Of a stretch of 20,087 nucleotides of DNA, positions 3,868-19,813 are shown in pieces. The translations under genes were made by a program, and so were the position numbers. The notes below the pieces were generated by a model. It saw nothing but the letters and a program-made list of their open reading frames with translations, made no database searches and was not told where the DNA came from. Each line of letters opens with the position of its first letter. Positions within the stretch are counted from its first letter, which is position 1. Source of the DNA: a virus; the IMG/VR virus record IMGVR_UViG_3300018083_000130, positions 1 through 20,087 of that record. One strand, given 5' to 3'.

Positions 3868-5823
3868 TTAGGTGATGCTGGTTGCGCGGGAGAACGCGAA
3901 CGGACGGCGCACGCCGACGTCCATCGAGTAGATCGCACGCACGCCGATGATGCCCGCCTGGAAGTTGGCGTAGGGGTTGACCTCGACCTCGAGGACACCC
4001 CACTCGCCGACCACCACTTCCTGCCAGTCACCGAAGATCATCGAAGCCGCGGTGAGCTGGTTGGACGACATCGCCGGGATACCGAACAGCGAGCCATCCC
4101 AGGGGTTGCCCATCCACAGCCGGGTGGTACCGGTGGTCGGCAGTTCCGGGCGAGCCATCAGGAGCCCGGCGACCGCCGCCGTGGTGACGTACCCCGGACG
4201 GGCCGGAGTCACGTTGGACGTGGCAACGTCGGTCAAGAACTCGATGACGCCAGCCGCAGCCAGCGACGTGCCGGTTACGGATCCGATGCCAGCCGTGCCG
4301 GAAATGCCCGTCGGCTGGCCACCCGCGCCGGAGCCCTCGAGCACGCCCAGGTCCGCCGCGATCGCTGTGACCTGCGCGAGGTCGTCGGTGACGATCCCAT
4401 CCGCCGCCGGCGAGCTCTGCAGCAGCAACTGGCGGCTGATCTCGGTGTAGGCACCGACGTTCTTGGGAGTCAACGCCATCTGGACGAACGTCTGCTGGCT
4501 CTCGGTGATGGTGCTCGCCTCGTTCGCGAGCCACACCGCCGTCGCCGCTGCGCTCTGCCGCGGAACGGTGACGCTGCCCTGCAGGCCCGACAGCCGGCGG
4601 GCGCCCATGCGGAAGGCGACCGAGCGGTTGCGCAGCATCTCGATGAAACCGATGTTCTCGGTCCCGACCAGGAAGCCACCCGCGCCGGCAGTTGCGACGG
4701 TGAGGTCGCGTCGGCCGAGCGATGAGAGGTACTGCCGCACCTGGAGATCCAGCGGCCGCTCCATCACCTCGAAGGGAATGTAGAACCTGAAATCTTCGGC
4801 CACGCGCCCCAGCTTTTGCGCGACCGCTCGCGAGCACTCCAGCTCGAAGCCGGCGTTTTTCCAGTCCTTGGAAGACGCGGCGATAATTGCTCGAGACAGA
4901 CGGAAACTCTGCGTCTCGTCGGCGGTGAGACCGAGGCGGCTCGCGGGCTGCGGGTTGGTGCGGCCGCGCTCCTCCAGAATGCGCAGGATGTCCTCGGACA
5001 CCTGCTCGATCGCGTAGCCCTGCGAGATCCAGGCGTCGCGCATGCGGTCGTCGAGTTTGTTCGCCTTGCACAGGTTCTCGATCGCCCGGCGGCGGGCCTT
5101 TTCCATCTCCACCACGCTCATCTGCTGCACGGCTCGTTGCGCGCGTTCCACTGCGTCGCCTTGTGTTGCGGCTGCTGCGGCTGCTGCGGCCGCTGCTGTT
5201 GCTGCAGCTGCCGTATCGGCGGTTTGGGTCGCCGCGGCCCTTGCTTCGGTAGTCATAGTCGACTCCTGAGTTGTGGCGGAAACCGCCGGGTTAAGAACCT
5301 GATTTGCTGCCCGGCCCACGCCGACCGTGTGGTCGGCGGGGACCGTCACGAGGGACACCTCGAACGGTGTCCAGCGGGTGACCGTGTATTCGTCTTCCTC
5401 TTCCTTGCCGGTGCGGGTGAGCTTCATCTCGTCGCGGCTGTAGCCGACGGAGACGGAGGCGAGGATGCCGTCCTTGACGTCGCGGAAGACTTCGTCGGCA
5501 CGCTCGCTCTTGCCGAAGCGCACCGTGGCGCGCCCCTTCTTGTCGTCGTCCACGCGCGCGGACTCGACGACGCCCACCCAGTCGCCGGGATCGTGGTTGA
5601 CGAGCATGTTGGCGCGGCCGGACTTGAGCCGCTCCAGGTTGACCGAGCCTTTGGCGTGGGACAGGATCTCCTGCCCATACCACCGCAGCACCGGCTCCTC
5701 GGACGAGAACGCGAGCTCGACGGTGCGCTGGTCTTCCTTGACGCTGGCGCGGTCGAAGTGCGCCTCGAGGCGGTCGCGCCTGGCGAGGATGTCGGCAATG
5801 GTCGGCTTGGTGGCTGTCGTCAT
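3868..5823 (-). CDS. HK97-type prohead protease fused to major capsid protein
   Basis: A 651-residue fusion. Residues 1-175 form a U35-type prohead protease. Candidate catalytic residues are His77 (M-L-V-N-H-D-P-G), Ser125 (A-S-V-S-V-G-Y-S) and Glu155 in the typical 'P-F-E-V-S-L-V-T-V-P-A' motif. Residues 200-220 are a poly-alanine linker. Residues 222-300 are charged and helical, like the HK97 delta (scaffold) domain. About 360-651 is the HK97-fold capsid shell with 'G-G-F-L-V-G-T-E', 'F-R-M-G-A-R-R-L-S-G' and a C-terminal 'V-G-V-R-R-P-F-A-F-S'. Most phages keep protease and capsid as separate genes. I choose ATG 5823, with GAGGTGA five bases upstream; GTG 5829 is an alternative. The portal stop codon overlaps the ribosome site. 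An internal start at 5256 could make capsid protein without protease. Confidence 0.93.
   Translation of the reverse strand: MTTATKPTIADILARRDRLEAHFDRASVKEDQRTVELAFSSEEPVLRWYGQEILSHAKGSVNLERLKSGRANMLVNHDPGDWVGVVESARVDDDKKGRATVRFGKSERADEVFRDVKDGILASVSVGYSRDEMKLTRTGKEEEDEYTVTRWTPFEVSLVTVPADHTVGVGRAANQVLNPAVSATTQESTMTTEARAAATQTADTAAAATAAAAAAAAAATQGDAVERAQRAVQQMSVVEMEKARRRAIENLCKANKLDDRMRDAWISQGYAIEQVSEDILRILEERGRTNPQPASRLGLTADETQSFRLSRAIIAASSKDWKNAGFELECSRAVAQKLGRVAEDFRFYIPFEVMERPLDLQVRQYLSSLGRRDLTVATAGAGGFLVGTENIGFIEMLRNRSVAFRMGARRLSGLQGSVTVPRQSAAATAVWLANEASTITESQQTFVQMALTPKNVGAYTEISRQLLLQSSPAADGIVTDDLAQVTAIAADLGVLEGSGAGGQPTGISGTAGIGSVTGTSLAAAGVIEFLTDVATSNVTPARPGYVTTAAVAGLLMARPELPTTGTTRLWMGNPWDGSLFGIPAMSSNQLTAASMIFGDWQEVVVGEWGVLEVEVNPYANFQAGIIGVRAIYSMDVGVRRPFAFSRATSIT
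5164..5213 (-). repeat. GCN codon run encoding a poly-alanine linker
   Basis: A low-complexity stretch of GCA, GCG, GCC and GCT codons broken only by two Thr codons. It encodes most of residues 204-220 of the protease-capsid fusion, including ten consecutive Ala. It lies between protease and capsid domains and just after the internal start, so it is likely a helical spacer. Mixed codons argue against simple recent triplet expansion. Confidence 0.75.
5254..5267 (-). promoter_or_regulatory. Internal ribosome binding site and ATG for free capsid protein
   Basis: Within the protease-capsid gene, AGGAG (5267-5263) is followed after six bases by an in-frame ATG (5256-5254), codon 190 of the fusion. 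Starting here would give a 462-residue protein (MTTEARAAATQTADTA...) holding the linker, delta-like domain and capsid shell but no protease. This would let the phage make far more capsid protein than protease from one gene. The arrangement recalls the nested lambda C/Nu3 start. Confidence 0.72.
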
Positions 5824-5825
5824 GG

Positions 5826-7502
5826 TCACCTCACAATTGAAACGGCCCGCTTCGGCGGGCCGTTGGTTGCGGAATCTTCGTCTTCCTTATCGGGCGGGTC
5901 GGTGCCTTCTTTCGGCGGCGTCGTCACTGGCGCCGGTTTTTCTTCCGCGACGTAGACCTCGGGCGAGGTGTCAAACATCAGGCCTTTCTCTTCCATCATC
6001 TTCAGCTCGCGCTCGCGCTGGGTGAGCACGTCCTCTAGGTCCAGCCCGTTGCCGGTCTGGGAGATGACGTCCGACACCGTGATGAAGCCGGCCTTGACCG
6101 CTTCCTTGTAGGCGGCGACTTCCTTGGTCGGGTCCACCCAGCTCCAGCCGCGCGGCTTGAACAGCACCGCCTCGAATTTCTTCGGGTCGGTCGCGTATTC
6201 CTCGATGCGGATCGCCGGGACCGTGCGCGACAACACCGCCGCTTGCAGCCATTCCTTATGCACCGGCAGCCGCAACGAGCGCAGCCACCACTGTTGCAGC
6301 ATCTTCCACAGATCGCGATCGTCCAGCAGCGCGAGGCGGCTCGAGGAGTAGTTCGACTGCGAGTAATCGCGGGACACGCTCTCGTAGCTGGGCCCGGTGC
6401 CGGCACAGAACTCGCGCAGCATGTAGCGCATGAACTGGTCGAGCGCGGTGTTGGGGCGCGACGGAACGTGCGTTTCCCATTTTTCCCCCGGATCGAGCCG
6501 CACGCCCATGCCCGGCTCGACCGCGAGTTCCTTCTGCACCGCCGGCGCAGCGGTGCCGCTGCCGGCGGGTACTTGTCCCGCGAGCGGTGACGCTTCGCCT
6601 TCCGGCGTCTCGATCGTGAATACGTACGAGGCCGCCCCGCGCGCCGCGATGATCTCGGCCTCGGTGTAGCCGTCCATGTCGTTCAACTTCCGCACCACCG
6701 CGTGCATCCACGGCACGCCTCGTGTCTGCGGCCATCGGTCCGTCAGGCGCAAGTGGATGATCTGGTCGGCGGGCACGCGCTCGAGCAGGTCGATCTCCCC
6801 GGCCGAGGCGCGCATCTCTCCGGGATGACGGGTTCGGATATAGTAGGCGAGCGGGCGGCCGAAGTGATCCTGCTCGATGCCCATTTTGACGATCACGCCG
6901 GGCGCGACGGGCGTCGGCGGCACCGGATACATATACTCGTCGGCCAGGCGCTCGGCCTCGATCAGTTCGAGGGAGAACGGTATCTCGCCGCCGCCGAAGG
7001 CACGGTGGTGCTTGCGCACGAAAACTTCGCCGGCCTCGAACACTTCTCCCATCAGCGCGCGCTCAAAGTCGCAGAAGTGGAGAGTGCCTCCGGTGTGGCA
7101 ATACTCAGCGCACGCCCAGTCGCGCCAGGCTTCCTCGATGCCATCGTTTACGTCCCGCCGCAGCGCGTCGCGCGATGACATCACCTGAGCCTGCATGCCG
7201 ATGCCGGGGCCGATGACGTTGTTCTGAACGATTACCTTCGCGCGCGTGGCGTATGCCGAGTCGCGCACCAGGGCGCGGCTCCGATTGCGGAGGTCTTTCA
7301 GGCTCGAGATCAGCTCGGAGTCGGCCGAGGTGGTGGACGTGGCCCAACCCGCCGTCAGTCGCGAAGCGCGGGCGGCCGAATACATCCGAGTCTGCACCGG
7401 CATCGCACGCGCAACCGCCTGCACGACGGGTTTCTTTCGCGGCTTGCGCACGGCCTTCGGGCGGATCGCGCGGGCGATGGATTTTCTGAGGTCGTCGAAC
7501 AT
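5826..7502 (-). CDS. Portal protein, lambda gpB family
   Basis: A 558-residue protein, close to lambda gpB (533). The portal forms the dodecameric ring at one capsid vertex through which DNA is packaged and released. Diagnostic sequence is clear. A basic N-terminus (residues 1-35) is followed by 'M-Y-S-A-A-R-A-S-R-L-T-A-G-W' (40-53), 'L-I-S-S-L-K-D-L-R-N-R-S-R-A-L-V-R-D' (64-81), and 'V-I-V-Q-N-N-V-I-G-P-G-I-G-M-Q' (90-104). Later come 'E-A-W-R-D-W-A', 'F-E-A-G-E-V-F-V-R' and 'I-H-L-R-L-T-D-R-W-P-Q-T-R-G-V-P-W'. The Pro/Glu-rich C-terminus may be disordered. ATG 7502 follows the upstream gene's stop (7505) by two bases, with only a weak site (GGAT), so coupling is likely. The end of the gene contains a perfect 10-bp hairpin. 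Confidence 0.95.
   Translation of the reverse strand: MFDDLRKSIARAIRPKAVRKPRKKPVVQAVARAMPVQTRMYSAARASRLTAGWATSTTSADSELISSLKDLRNRSRALVRDSAYATRAKVIVQNNVIGPGIGMQAQVMSSRDALRRDVNDGIEEAWRDWACAEYCHTGGTLHFCDFERALMGEVFEAGEVFVRKHHRAFGGGEIPFSLELIEAERLADEYMYPVPPTPVAPGVIVKMGIEQDHFGRPLAYYIRTRHPGEMRASAGEIDLLERVPADQIIHLRLTDRWPQTRGVPWMHAVVRKLNDMDGYTEAEIIAARGAASYVFTIETPEGEASPLAGQVPAGSGTAAPAVQKELAVEPGMGVRLDPGEKWETHVPSRPNTALDQFMRYMLREFCAGTGPSYESVSRDYSQSNYSSSRLALLDDRDLWKMLQQWWLRSLRLPVHKEWLQAAVLSRTVPAIRIEEYATDPKKFEAVLFKPRGWSWVDPTKEVAAYKEAVKAGFITVSDVISQTGNGLDLEDVLTQRERELKMMEEKGLMFDTSPEVYVAEEKPAPVTTPPKEGTDPPDKEDEDSATNGPPKRAVSIVR
5841..5864 (-). other. Perfect 10-bp hairpin at the end of the portal gene
   Basis: In the transcript AACGGCCCGC pairs with GCGGGCCGTT around a CGAA loop, 12 bases before the portal stop codon and 17 before the protease-capsid ATG. 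It has no U tract after it, so it is not a normal terminator. It could stabilise the capsid message or affect coupling between portal and capsid translation. It also encodes the portal residues N-G-P-P-K-R-A-V. Confidence 0.6.
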
Positions 7503-18525: not shown

Positions 18526-18568
18526 CCTGACACCATCTAACGCCACCCCGTCAAGTCATCCTGACACC
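18526..18568 (-). promoter_or_regulatory. Two direct repeats upstream of the small terminase gene (candidate cosB-like site)
   Basis: On the coding strand GTTAG-N-N-GGTGTCAGG occurs twice (18576-18560 and 18542-18526 by repeat), 34 bases apart, with 14 of 17 positions equal. The second copy touches the ribosome site of the small terminase gene. In lambda, repeats bound by the Nu1 protein (cosB) lie just before its gene. They might instead act as an operator. A TTGACG at about 18554-18549 has no good -10 partner. Confidence 0.5.
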
Positions 18569-18626
18569 CACTAACTAAATCGCGATCGAGGTTGGAATTA
18601 CCCCGAGGGAAAAGGTCCAGGAAGAA

Positions 18627-18662
18627 CCTACGAAATTTTAGGGACTTATATACTTAACTCCC
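18627..18662. repeat. Left arm of inverted repeat around the methyltransferase gene
   Basis: The core is 18641-18662. Its reverse complement matches 19151-19172 at 21 of 22 positions, beginning GGGAGTTAAGTATATAA. Matching continues more loosely out to CCTA at 18627. The arm is much richer in A/T than its surroundings. It lies seven bases beyond the methyltransferase stop codon. A second CCCGAGGG copy occurs at 18602-18609, and the DNA from 18570 to 18626 shows nothing else I can name. Confidence 0.9.
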
Positions 18663-18669
18663 GAGGGCA

Positions 18670-19146
18670 TCATTTCGGCTCAAGAATGAAAGCCGCGATG
18701 TGTCGCCCGGTGCCTTTGCCGGTGGATCCGTCCTCGATGGCGTTCCAGCGCACGTCGCCGAGGTTTCTGACCTTCGTGCCGATCACCGACAAGATCATCA
18801 GCACCCACTTGTCCACGGGATACACCAGTACTACCCGTTTGCCTTTCGCGTTTTCCTCAATCGCCTTGCGAACCCACGCTGTAGGGCCTTTCTTGCGCCC
18901 CTGGTGCATGATTGACCCGAAAGGCGGGTTTACGTAGTTGCTGGATCCCCACTCGCAGGAGAGGCCGTCAAAGCCTTCCGGCAGCGGATACGGGCACGGG
19001 TCGAAGTCAAAGTGAAACTCGGCATCCAGTGCGGCATACAGCACCGGTGGTGTCAGCCAGTAGTGCAGACCGTCCGCACCGTTACCGGCGTGGAACTTGT
19101 TTTCTGCCGGAACCAGTTGGCTTTGATGTTTAGGATTCATTCTCAT
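18670..19146 (-). CDS. Phage DNA N6-adenine methyltransferase (Dam-type)
   Basis: A 158-residue protein of the small phage adenine methyltransferase family. It shows 'H-Y-W-L-T-P-P' (28-34), 'F-D-F-D-P-C-P-Y-P' (46-54, with the Asp-Pro motif) and 'N-Y-V-N-P-P-F-G' (70-77, the N-P-P-F catalytic motif IV). Such enzymes methylate adenine in phage DNA and can protect against host restriction or mark DNA. The length is typical for the family. The gene is bracketed within a few bases by inverted repeats. No Shine-Dalgarno sequence precedes ATG 19146 (or ATG 19140); the repeat arm occupies that place. TATACT in the arm could be a -10 box giving a nearly leaderless message, but no -35 is evident. It lies between HNH and small terminase genes. 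Confidence 0.9.
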   Translation of the reverse strand: MRMNPKHQSQLVPAENKFHAGNGADGLHYWLTPPVLYAALDAEFHFDFDPCPYPLPEGFDGLSCEWGSSNYVNPPFGSIMHQGRKKGPTAWVRKAIEENAKGKRVVLVYPVDKWVLMILSVIGTKVRNLGDVRWNAIEDGSTGKGTGRHIAAFILEPK

Positions 19147-19150
19147 TCGT

Positions 19151-19185
19151 GGGAGTTAAGTATATAAATCCCAAATTTTATTAGG
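19151..19185. repeat. Right arm of inverted repeat around the methyltransferase gene
   Basis: The core is 19151-19172 (GGGAGTTAAGTATATAAA and TCCC on the plus strand), the inverted partner of 18641-18662. Weaker matching extends through AAATTT to TTAGG at 19185, which includes the HNH stop codon. It begins four bases ahead of the methyltransferase start codon and covers the place where a ribosome site would be. Confidence 0.9.
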
Positions 19186-19813
19186 ACAGCTGCTTGACGC
19201 GCCAAGCGCGTGCCCGCTCCGCAGAGTGCAGTGTGCTAGGTGGGAGCGTGCCCATCTCACGCTGCCGAATCCACTTTGCCGCCTTGCTACAGGGCTCAGA
19301 ACAGAACAACGCTTTAGGGGAATGAGTCTCGAACGCCTCGCCACAATGGCTGCAGGTCTTGGCGGCTTTCGGCTTGGCCTCGTAGATGTAATTCGCGCTG
19401 GGCTTGCACTCATCCGAGCAATAAACGCGCGGCGACCCAGTGAGCAAACGCTTGTCGAAGAACACCTCTTTACATCCCCGGCAGCAGATCTCTCTCTCCA
19501 CGACAATTGTGTTAGCGAGGTTCTCTTTCCTGGTCACCACACGTAGGTTGCTTCTTCGGTTGTCTAAACCGTCACGATTCCGGTGATCAATATCAAGCGG
19601 CCCCGAGTAGAGCAGGATGGCGCGGTGCATCCTCACCATGGTGCAAAGGCCATCTATGTAGATGCTTCGCACCGCGTAGATGTGGTTGTGCGAACCGTTC
19701 CACTTGGCCTTCCATCTCCATTGGTTCAGGTAGTCGTACACGTCATCATCCACCACCGTGAATTGGTGGTCACCGACCGCATACTTGCCGCCCAACTCTA
19801 TCAGCTTTGCCAT
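19181..19813 (-). CDS. HNH endonuclease with two C-terminal zinc-binding motifs
   Basis: A 210-residue protein. The HNH core is 'M-H-R-A-I-L' (His63) followed by 'L-D-I-D-H-R-N-R-D-G-L-D-N-R-R-S-N-L-R' (about 73-91), the classic His-Asn-His homing type pattern. The N-terminal 60 residues carry the usual 'A-V-G-D-H-Q-F-T-V-V-D-D-D' lead-in strands. Two zinc pairs follow: C-x-x-C with Y-C-S-D-E-C (about 111-136), and C-S-H-C-G with F-C-S-E-P-C (154-175), likely DNA-binding. This type is commonly free-standing in phages and may be selfish. HNH proteins beside terminase genes can also assist packaging cuts. I choose ATG 19813; a TTG at 19831 lies upstream and would overlap the preceding gene. No clear ribosome site is seen. 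Confidence 0.92.
   Translation of the reverse strand: MAKLIELGGKYAVGDHQFTVVDDDVYDYLNQWRWKAKWNGSHNHIYAVRSIYIDGLCTMVRMHRAILLYSGPLDIDHRNRDGLDNRRSNLRVVTRKENLANTIVVEREICCRGCKEVFFDKRLLTGSPRVYCSDECKPSANYIYEAKPKAAKTCSHCGEAFETHSPKALFCSEPCSKAAKWIRQREMGTLPPSTLHSAERARAWRVKQLS

Follow-up and report, generated by a model that had tools for sequence, protein, structure and literature searches.

The unit at positions 18641-19172 of the window (the whole 20,087-base stretch of a viral IMG/VR record) is very probably a mobile insertion cassette with terminal inverted repeats (TIRs) of an IS1595 lineage, inserted with an 8-bp target duplication. This reading follows from the ends and the duplications taken together with transposase elements that have matching ends, the variety of cargo genes, and the restoration of an interrupted gene in another stretch (L020). 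The ends belong to an IS1595-family lineage that resides mainly in uncultivated environmental phages. As judged from its sequence, the element is a non-autonomous relative of IS1595 elements and not an insertion sequence, since it encodes no transposase. A minimal mobile cassette without a transposase had already been proposed in a preliminary description of this DNA, and the proposal is borne out by the presence of the same core in other phages, around other cargos and with 8-bp duplications, as well as by the empty-site counterpart of L020.

According to the repeat search, the arms agree at 21 of 22 positions in inverted orientation with 488 bp between them, as described previously, and the match extends to 25 nt at 92% identity. 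Within each arm, the sequence is imperfectly palindromic, and no further copy of the arm core with up to 3 mismatches exists within the window (shuffled sequences also give an expectation of 0). What was earlier attributed to the inverted repeat, a weaker match reaching about 35 bp, is actually an exact 8-bp direct repeat, AAATTTTA, located immediately outside both arms; this octamer is nearly palindromic, and therefore its direct repetition is easily taken for extra inverted matching. Exact direct repeats of this length around a TIR pair read as the mark of transposition. The 488-bp interior leaves room for the methyltransferase ORF alone and has no transposase match. The ORF coordinates agree with the former statement that the arms enclose essentially one gene, with 4 bp before its start and 7 bp beyond its stop (Table 1). 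The insertion point is an AT-rich spot just past an HNH gene of a tailed-phage genome, and the neighbours of the unit include terminase genes, as recognised by profile matches. Positions 18526-18541 and 18560-18575, immediately upstream of the gene for the small terminase, contain near copies (88%) of CCTGACACCATCTAAC, 34 bp apart, possibly an operator or a packaging-related site.

Table 1. Coordinates of the cassette and its parts within the window.
Feature	Position	Strand	Basis or remark
Whole element: TIR, Dam gene, TIR (532 bp)	18641..19172	.	TIR pair and perfect 8-bp flanking duplication
Left TIR, GGGACTTATATACTTAACTCCC, read outside to inside	18641..18662	+	21/22 inverted match to right arm
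Right TIR, GGGATTTATATACTTAACTCCC, read outside to inside	19151..19172	-	
Target site duplication AAATTTTA, left copy	18633..18640	+	
Target site duplication AAATTTTA, right copy	19173..19180	+	Abuts HNH stop codon 19181-19183
Cargo: predicted Dam-type DNA adenine methyltransferase (158 aa)	18670..19146	-	Profile matches; DPCP and NPPF motifs

As for the cargo, it is predicted to be a Dam-type methyltransferase. The protein matches PHROG_111 with E=7e-16 and scores 27.4 bits with the Pfam Dam profile, slightly under the cut-off of 28.1. Relatives conserve both its DPCP and its NPPF motif; among 36 of them, the NPP is invariant and the following F nearly invariant. The structure was modelled with high confidence (pLDDT 86.6); matches of the model in the PDB are weak (best E 0.009), and the top ones are adenine methyltransferases.

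The core pattern GGGANTTAAGTATATAANTCCC is present in 40 IMG/VR stretches, with an estimated 0.1 expected by chance, and its variant in at least 120. In 257 Gb of genome sequence from bacteria and archaea, the first of these patterns occurs in 23 stretches, 7 of which belong to FCPU426 genomes. For most cores, an inverted partner lies at a distance of a few hundred to 2,500 bp, and the core flanks other cargo genes in other phages, a point that the preliminary description had proposed to check. Parsing with the TIR model GGGAnTTATATAnnTnACTCCC, in which the duplication served as a criterion, gives 85 elements, 82 with a perfect 8-bp duplication. Because the parse itself used the duplication, a separate flank-blind test was performed on 106 consecutive left-right TIR pairs picked without looking at the flanks. 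Flanking octamers are identical in 78 of these pairs, compared to 0 matches at six shifted positions and a mean of 1.0 (maximum 6) when right flanks are shuffled. Targets are AT-rich. The total number of distinct elements is 79, including 33 with a transposase and 46 without; the latter value counts two elements that keep only the transposase start (L008 5049-5784 and L023) and is slightly too high, since L076/L109 and L129, whose inner ends resemble a transposase C-terminus, are probably derelict transposase elements.

Some members of the family show features of their own. A MAG of FCPU426 (G007; L172, L174, and others) has about 15 TIR matches across its contigs, some of them paired at a distance of ~190-210 bp; they represent miniature members of the family on the chromosome, and no close transposase was found in that genome. 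Within ~13 kb of a contig of 101,523 bases (L033) there are at least 3 family elements, one with a transposase, along with unpaired ends, and unrelated small cargos on this contig have the leader AAGTAAACAAAGGAGATA in common. The right-hand TIRs of L020, L027, L034, L036, and L159 provide the stop codon, with ORFs ending in ...ELSI* or ...LSI* within GGGAGTTAAGTATATAA.

The transposases of the 33 autonomous elements are ~305-313 aa long, and the scanned ones match both the DDE domain of IS1595 and its zinc ribbon, as reported by PF12762 (E from 1e-40 to 2e-46), PF12760, and NF033547 (195-210 bits against a cut-off of 75). Target duplications of 8 bp are typical of the IS1595 family. The closest ends belong to an autonomous element on a Deltaproteobacteria MAG contig (L250), both of which are identical to the left TIR of the window at 22 of 22 positions; its flanking octamers, however, agree at only 6 of 8 positions, which is a point against. 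Ends of the elements in L027 and L186 are also close to the window TIR. The two transposase-less elements mentioned above, L008 5049-5784 and L023, retain the first ~20-26 transposase codons, and such leftovers are as expected of derivatives of transposase elements. On the contigs of L008 and L033, transposase-bearing and transposase-less elements are found together. This transposase lineage is a distinct one: its best identity is ~37% among 50,697 phage records (cultured phages) and at most 46% among 72,556 plasmid records, while some MAG contigs reach 67-71%. Inside one end, L008, L011, L012, L023, and L165 have TTGACA-N17-TACAAT-like promoters with a spacer that contains GGGAGTCATCTA, half of the TIR; the position of this half site suggests that the transposase may repress its own gene.

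A search with the window Dam protein returns 68 viral loci. Most of these relatives have no TIRs, which shows the gene to be independent of the cassette, and three informative ones have them. L186 1809-3457 is a complete autonomous element with the duplication ATTAAAAA, containing a transposase and a Dam gene 82% identical to that of the window. In L201 (3975-4482), Dam lies between diverged ends GGTACTGACATACTTGGCTCAC with the 8-bp duplication ATTGGATG; such ends probably form a type of their own that is related to the others. In L182 (3643-4999), two almost identical TIR units of 181 bp, arranged as direct repeats, enclose a Dam gene 88% identical to the window's; the outer flanks have CATTTTTG in common and the inner flanks differ, as though a pair of miniature elements had transported Dam between them as a single unit. 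Such a composite is a possible capture route for genes. The distribution of TIR-borne proteins over the Dam tree requires 4 state changes, at least 3 of them forced by well-supported branches. Dam has thus probably entered such cassettes more than once, although losses may account for some of the changes and the branches of L017 and L057 are long.

DNA-modification genes, identified by a Pfam or PHROG match, occupy 19 of the 46 distinct transposase-less elements and represent at least 6 unrelated families (Dam, N6/N4 methylase, D12, C5, MT-A70, and Mom). The control set contains 135 random ORFs of 130-380 aa from outside the elements on the same contigs, with length and gene calling matched imperfectly, and has 1 modification-family match among the 25 of 38 families listed. 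The resulting excess has a Fisher p of 3e-12 and would hold at p 1e-5 even were all 13 remaining control families modification enzymes. Autonomous elements can also have extra cargo, namely C5 methylase (L128 and its copy L094), Dam (L186), and a PAPS-reductase-like gene (L155). Different modification cargos of L009, L018, L021, and L028 have the TIR-adjacent leader ..ATCAGcGGGTTATGA in common, which suggests that cargos may be swapped behind one shared start. The MT-A70 cargo of L034 (5585-6164) extends over two overlapping frames (5590-6000 and 5879-6151) and therefore may be frameshifted. The cargo of L162 (1944-2466) is nucleoside deoxyribosyltransferase-like (PHROG_12607, E 4e-42), and several others, among them L051 9791-10945, L001, L007, L047, and L154, are of no known family; all of these named cargos, L162 included, are candidates for undescribed modification or defence-related functions.

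Sequence evidence of precise insertion comes from L020, where the element at 2249-2959 sits within a C5-methylase gene. Removal of the element and one copy of TTTCATTT gives a continuous 338-aa ORF that stays colinear through the junction with an intact relative in L051. Here, a C5-methylase cassette interrupts a different C5 methylase gene. The L020/L051 pair served for the empty-site test in place of the window locus: IMG/VR contains no exact copy of the joined 22-mer CTACGAAATTTTATTAGGACAG, and a search for relatives of the window locus via the small terminase or the HNH protein found nothing. The sister without the unit, brought up in the preliminary description, is thus matched by a counterpart in L020 versus L051 and not by an exact empty site of the window.

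The missing empty-site sister fits another explanation, according to which the unit is a fossil: a single IS1595-type transposition brought it in, the ends have since become inert, and the gene is now passed on like any other phage gene. The whole 20,087-base record, a 20-kb fragment, has no transposase, which counts in favour of this explanation and against mobility, and most Dam relatives do without TIRs. However, the two window TIRs disagree at a single position out of 22, both copies of the target duplication remain identical, and the ends of an autonomous element (L250) equal the left TIR. A single past arrival followed by loss of function is consequently considered unlikely, while being the most serious competitor of a cassette that is still mobile.

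A regulatory origin of the arms has far less in its favour. About 34 nt separate the start of the Dam gene from the stop of the HNH gene, which lies on the same strand, and inspection of the region upstream of the start reveals no Shine-Dalgarno-like sequence, in agreement with the ribosome site reported missing before. No sigma-70-like promoter was found in either window arm. In a read-through RNA from the minus strand (19130-19190), the 5' arm pairs with the first Dam codons (-10.4 kcal/mol, z -2.65), and this modelled fold could damp Dam translation on transcripts entering from outside. Pairing of the two arms with each other in the message, also suggested earlier, was set aside as unnecessary, the local 5' hairpin having been found instead. 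The fold over the start, the lack of a visible ribosome-binding site, and the imperfect palindrome in each arm, resembling a dimer-binding site, would suit arms that regulate the methyltransferase locally, as operators, promoters, or mRNA hairpins, and are not transposon ends. However, the same ends surround transposases and unrelated genes with 8-bp duplications, taking out one such unit (L020) restores an intact gene, and no promoter was found in the arms, which makes this explanation highly improbable. Regulation is thus not needed to account for the arms, while the part of the former claim that concerns the 5' arm stands in so far as its RNA could fold with the start, and a secondary regulatory effect could exist alongside the transposon role.

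Movement of the unit by the adjacent HNH endonuclease in a homing-enzyme fashion, for which the proximity and shared strand of the HNH_3 protein speak, is the least credible explanation and was dropped, because its gene ends outside the target duplication, no homologue is located near other elements (TIR cassettes elsewhere have no such HNH neighbour), and TIRs with 8-bp duplications are not what homing would be expected to leave. Neither this enzyme nor phage recombination, the other mover put forward previously, is supported, as the matching ends belong to IS1595-transposase elements.

For the insertion cassette, the following mechanism is proposed. An IS1595-type transposase from another element in the phage, from a co-infecting phage, or from the host would bind the cassette ends and, most likely, move the cassette in trans. 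Since no promoter was found in the arm and the start lies so close to the same-strand HNH stop, Dam would be expressed by read-through from upstream genes. Its product would methylate phage DNA and allow escape from restriction, due to which the cassette would be kept. A broader proposal, made tentatively and with slightly less than even confidence, is that this lineage in environmental phages represents counter-defence gene traffic: its ends would repeatedly capture unrelated modification genes out of the pool of phage genes, paired miniature copies as in L182 being an example of such capture, and a transposase acting in trans would move them between phages.

Among known systems, the most similar are mobile insertion cassettes. 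MIC231 of Bacillus cereus was the first described, and, as related in the qnrD paper, the IS231A transposase mobilises it in trans (PMC3913671); another is the qnrD mic of Proteeae (PMC3913671). Like these two, the window unit has a cargo between IS-type inverted repeats, no transposase, and a target duplication. In contrast, MIC231 and the qnrD mic derive from other IS families and reside in bacteria or plasmids, whereas the window cassette has IS1595-lineage ends, is located in a phage, and belongs to a family concentrated on DNA modification. Mobilisation in trans is known for MIC231, while for the window cassette we infer it. Passenger genes of IS1595 are said to blur the line between insertion sequences and transposons (Siguier 2009, as cited in PMC3129680). 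The related elements described here resemble such passenger-gene ('transporter') members in their PF12762/PF12760/NF033547 transposase, 8-bp duplications, and, in several cases, passenger genes; unlike IS1595 insertion sequences, the window element has no transposase. TIMEs are described as composite miniature elements derived from Tn3 (PMC4133298). Similarity to MITEs and TIMEs consists in being non-autonomous and TIR-bounded, and L182, with Dam between two 181-bp TIR units and an outer 8-bp duplication, is an example; unlike them, most transposase-less elements here hold cargo and are not empty. As a single accessory gene between structural genes, the cargo also resembles phage morons and free-standing Dam genes. 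Bradyrhizobium phage ppBjS10J-1 (L043) has a homologous Dam (72.7% DNA identity) but no TIRs. Cultured phages provide no model beyond this TIR-free homologue and transposases at no more than 37% identity.

Mobile insertion cassettes and IS1595 passenger genes are thus known already. Within the literature covered, which is incomplete, nothing on point was found on IS1595 elements or insertion cassettes with phage methyltransferase cargo, and no description of a phage-borne IS1595 lineage with cassettes concentrated on DNA modification. DNA-modification genes of phages are scattered across genomes, and their vehicle has been unclear. A TIR family with at least 6 modification families would give this scatter a mechanism, transposition in trans, as well as a searchable signature, and predicts that protection against restriction can hop between phages in one event. 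Its small, precisely bounded cargo genes also form a set to mine for modification or defence-related functions. Phages thus seem to exchange genes for protective marks on their DNA in the form of jumping cassettes.
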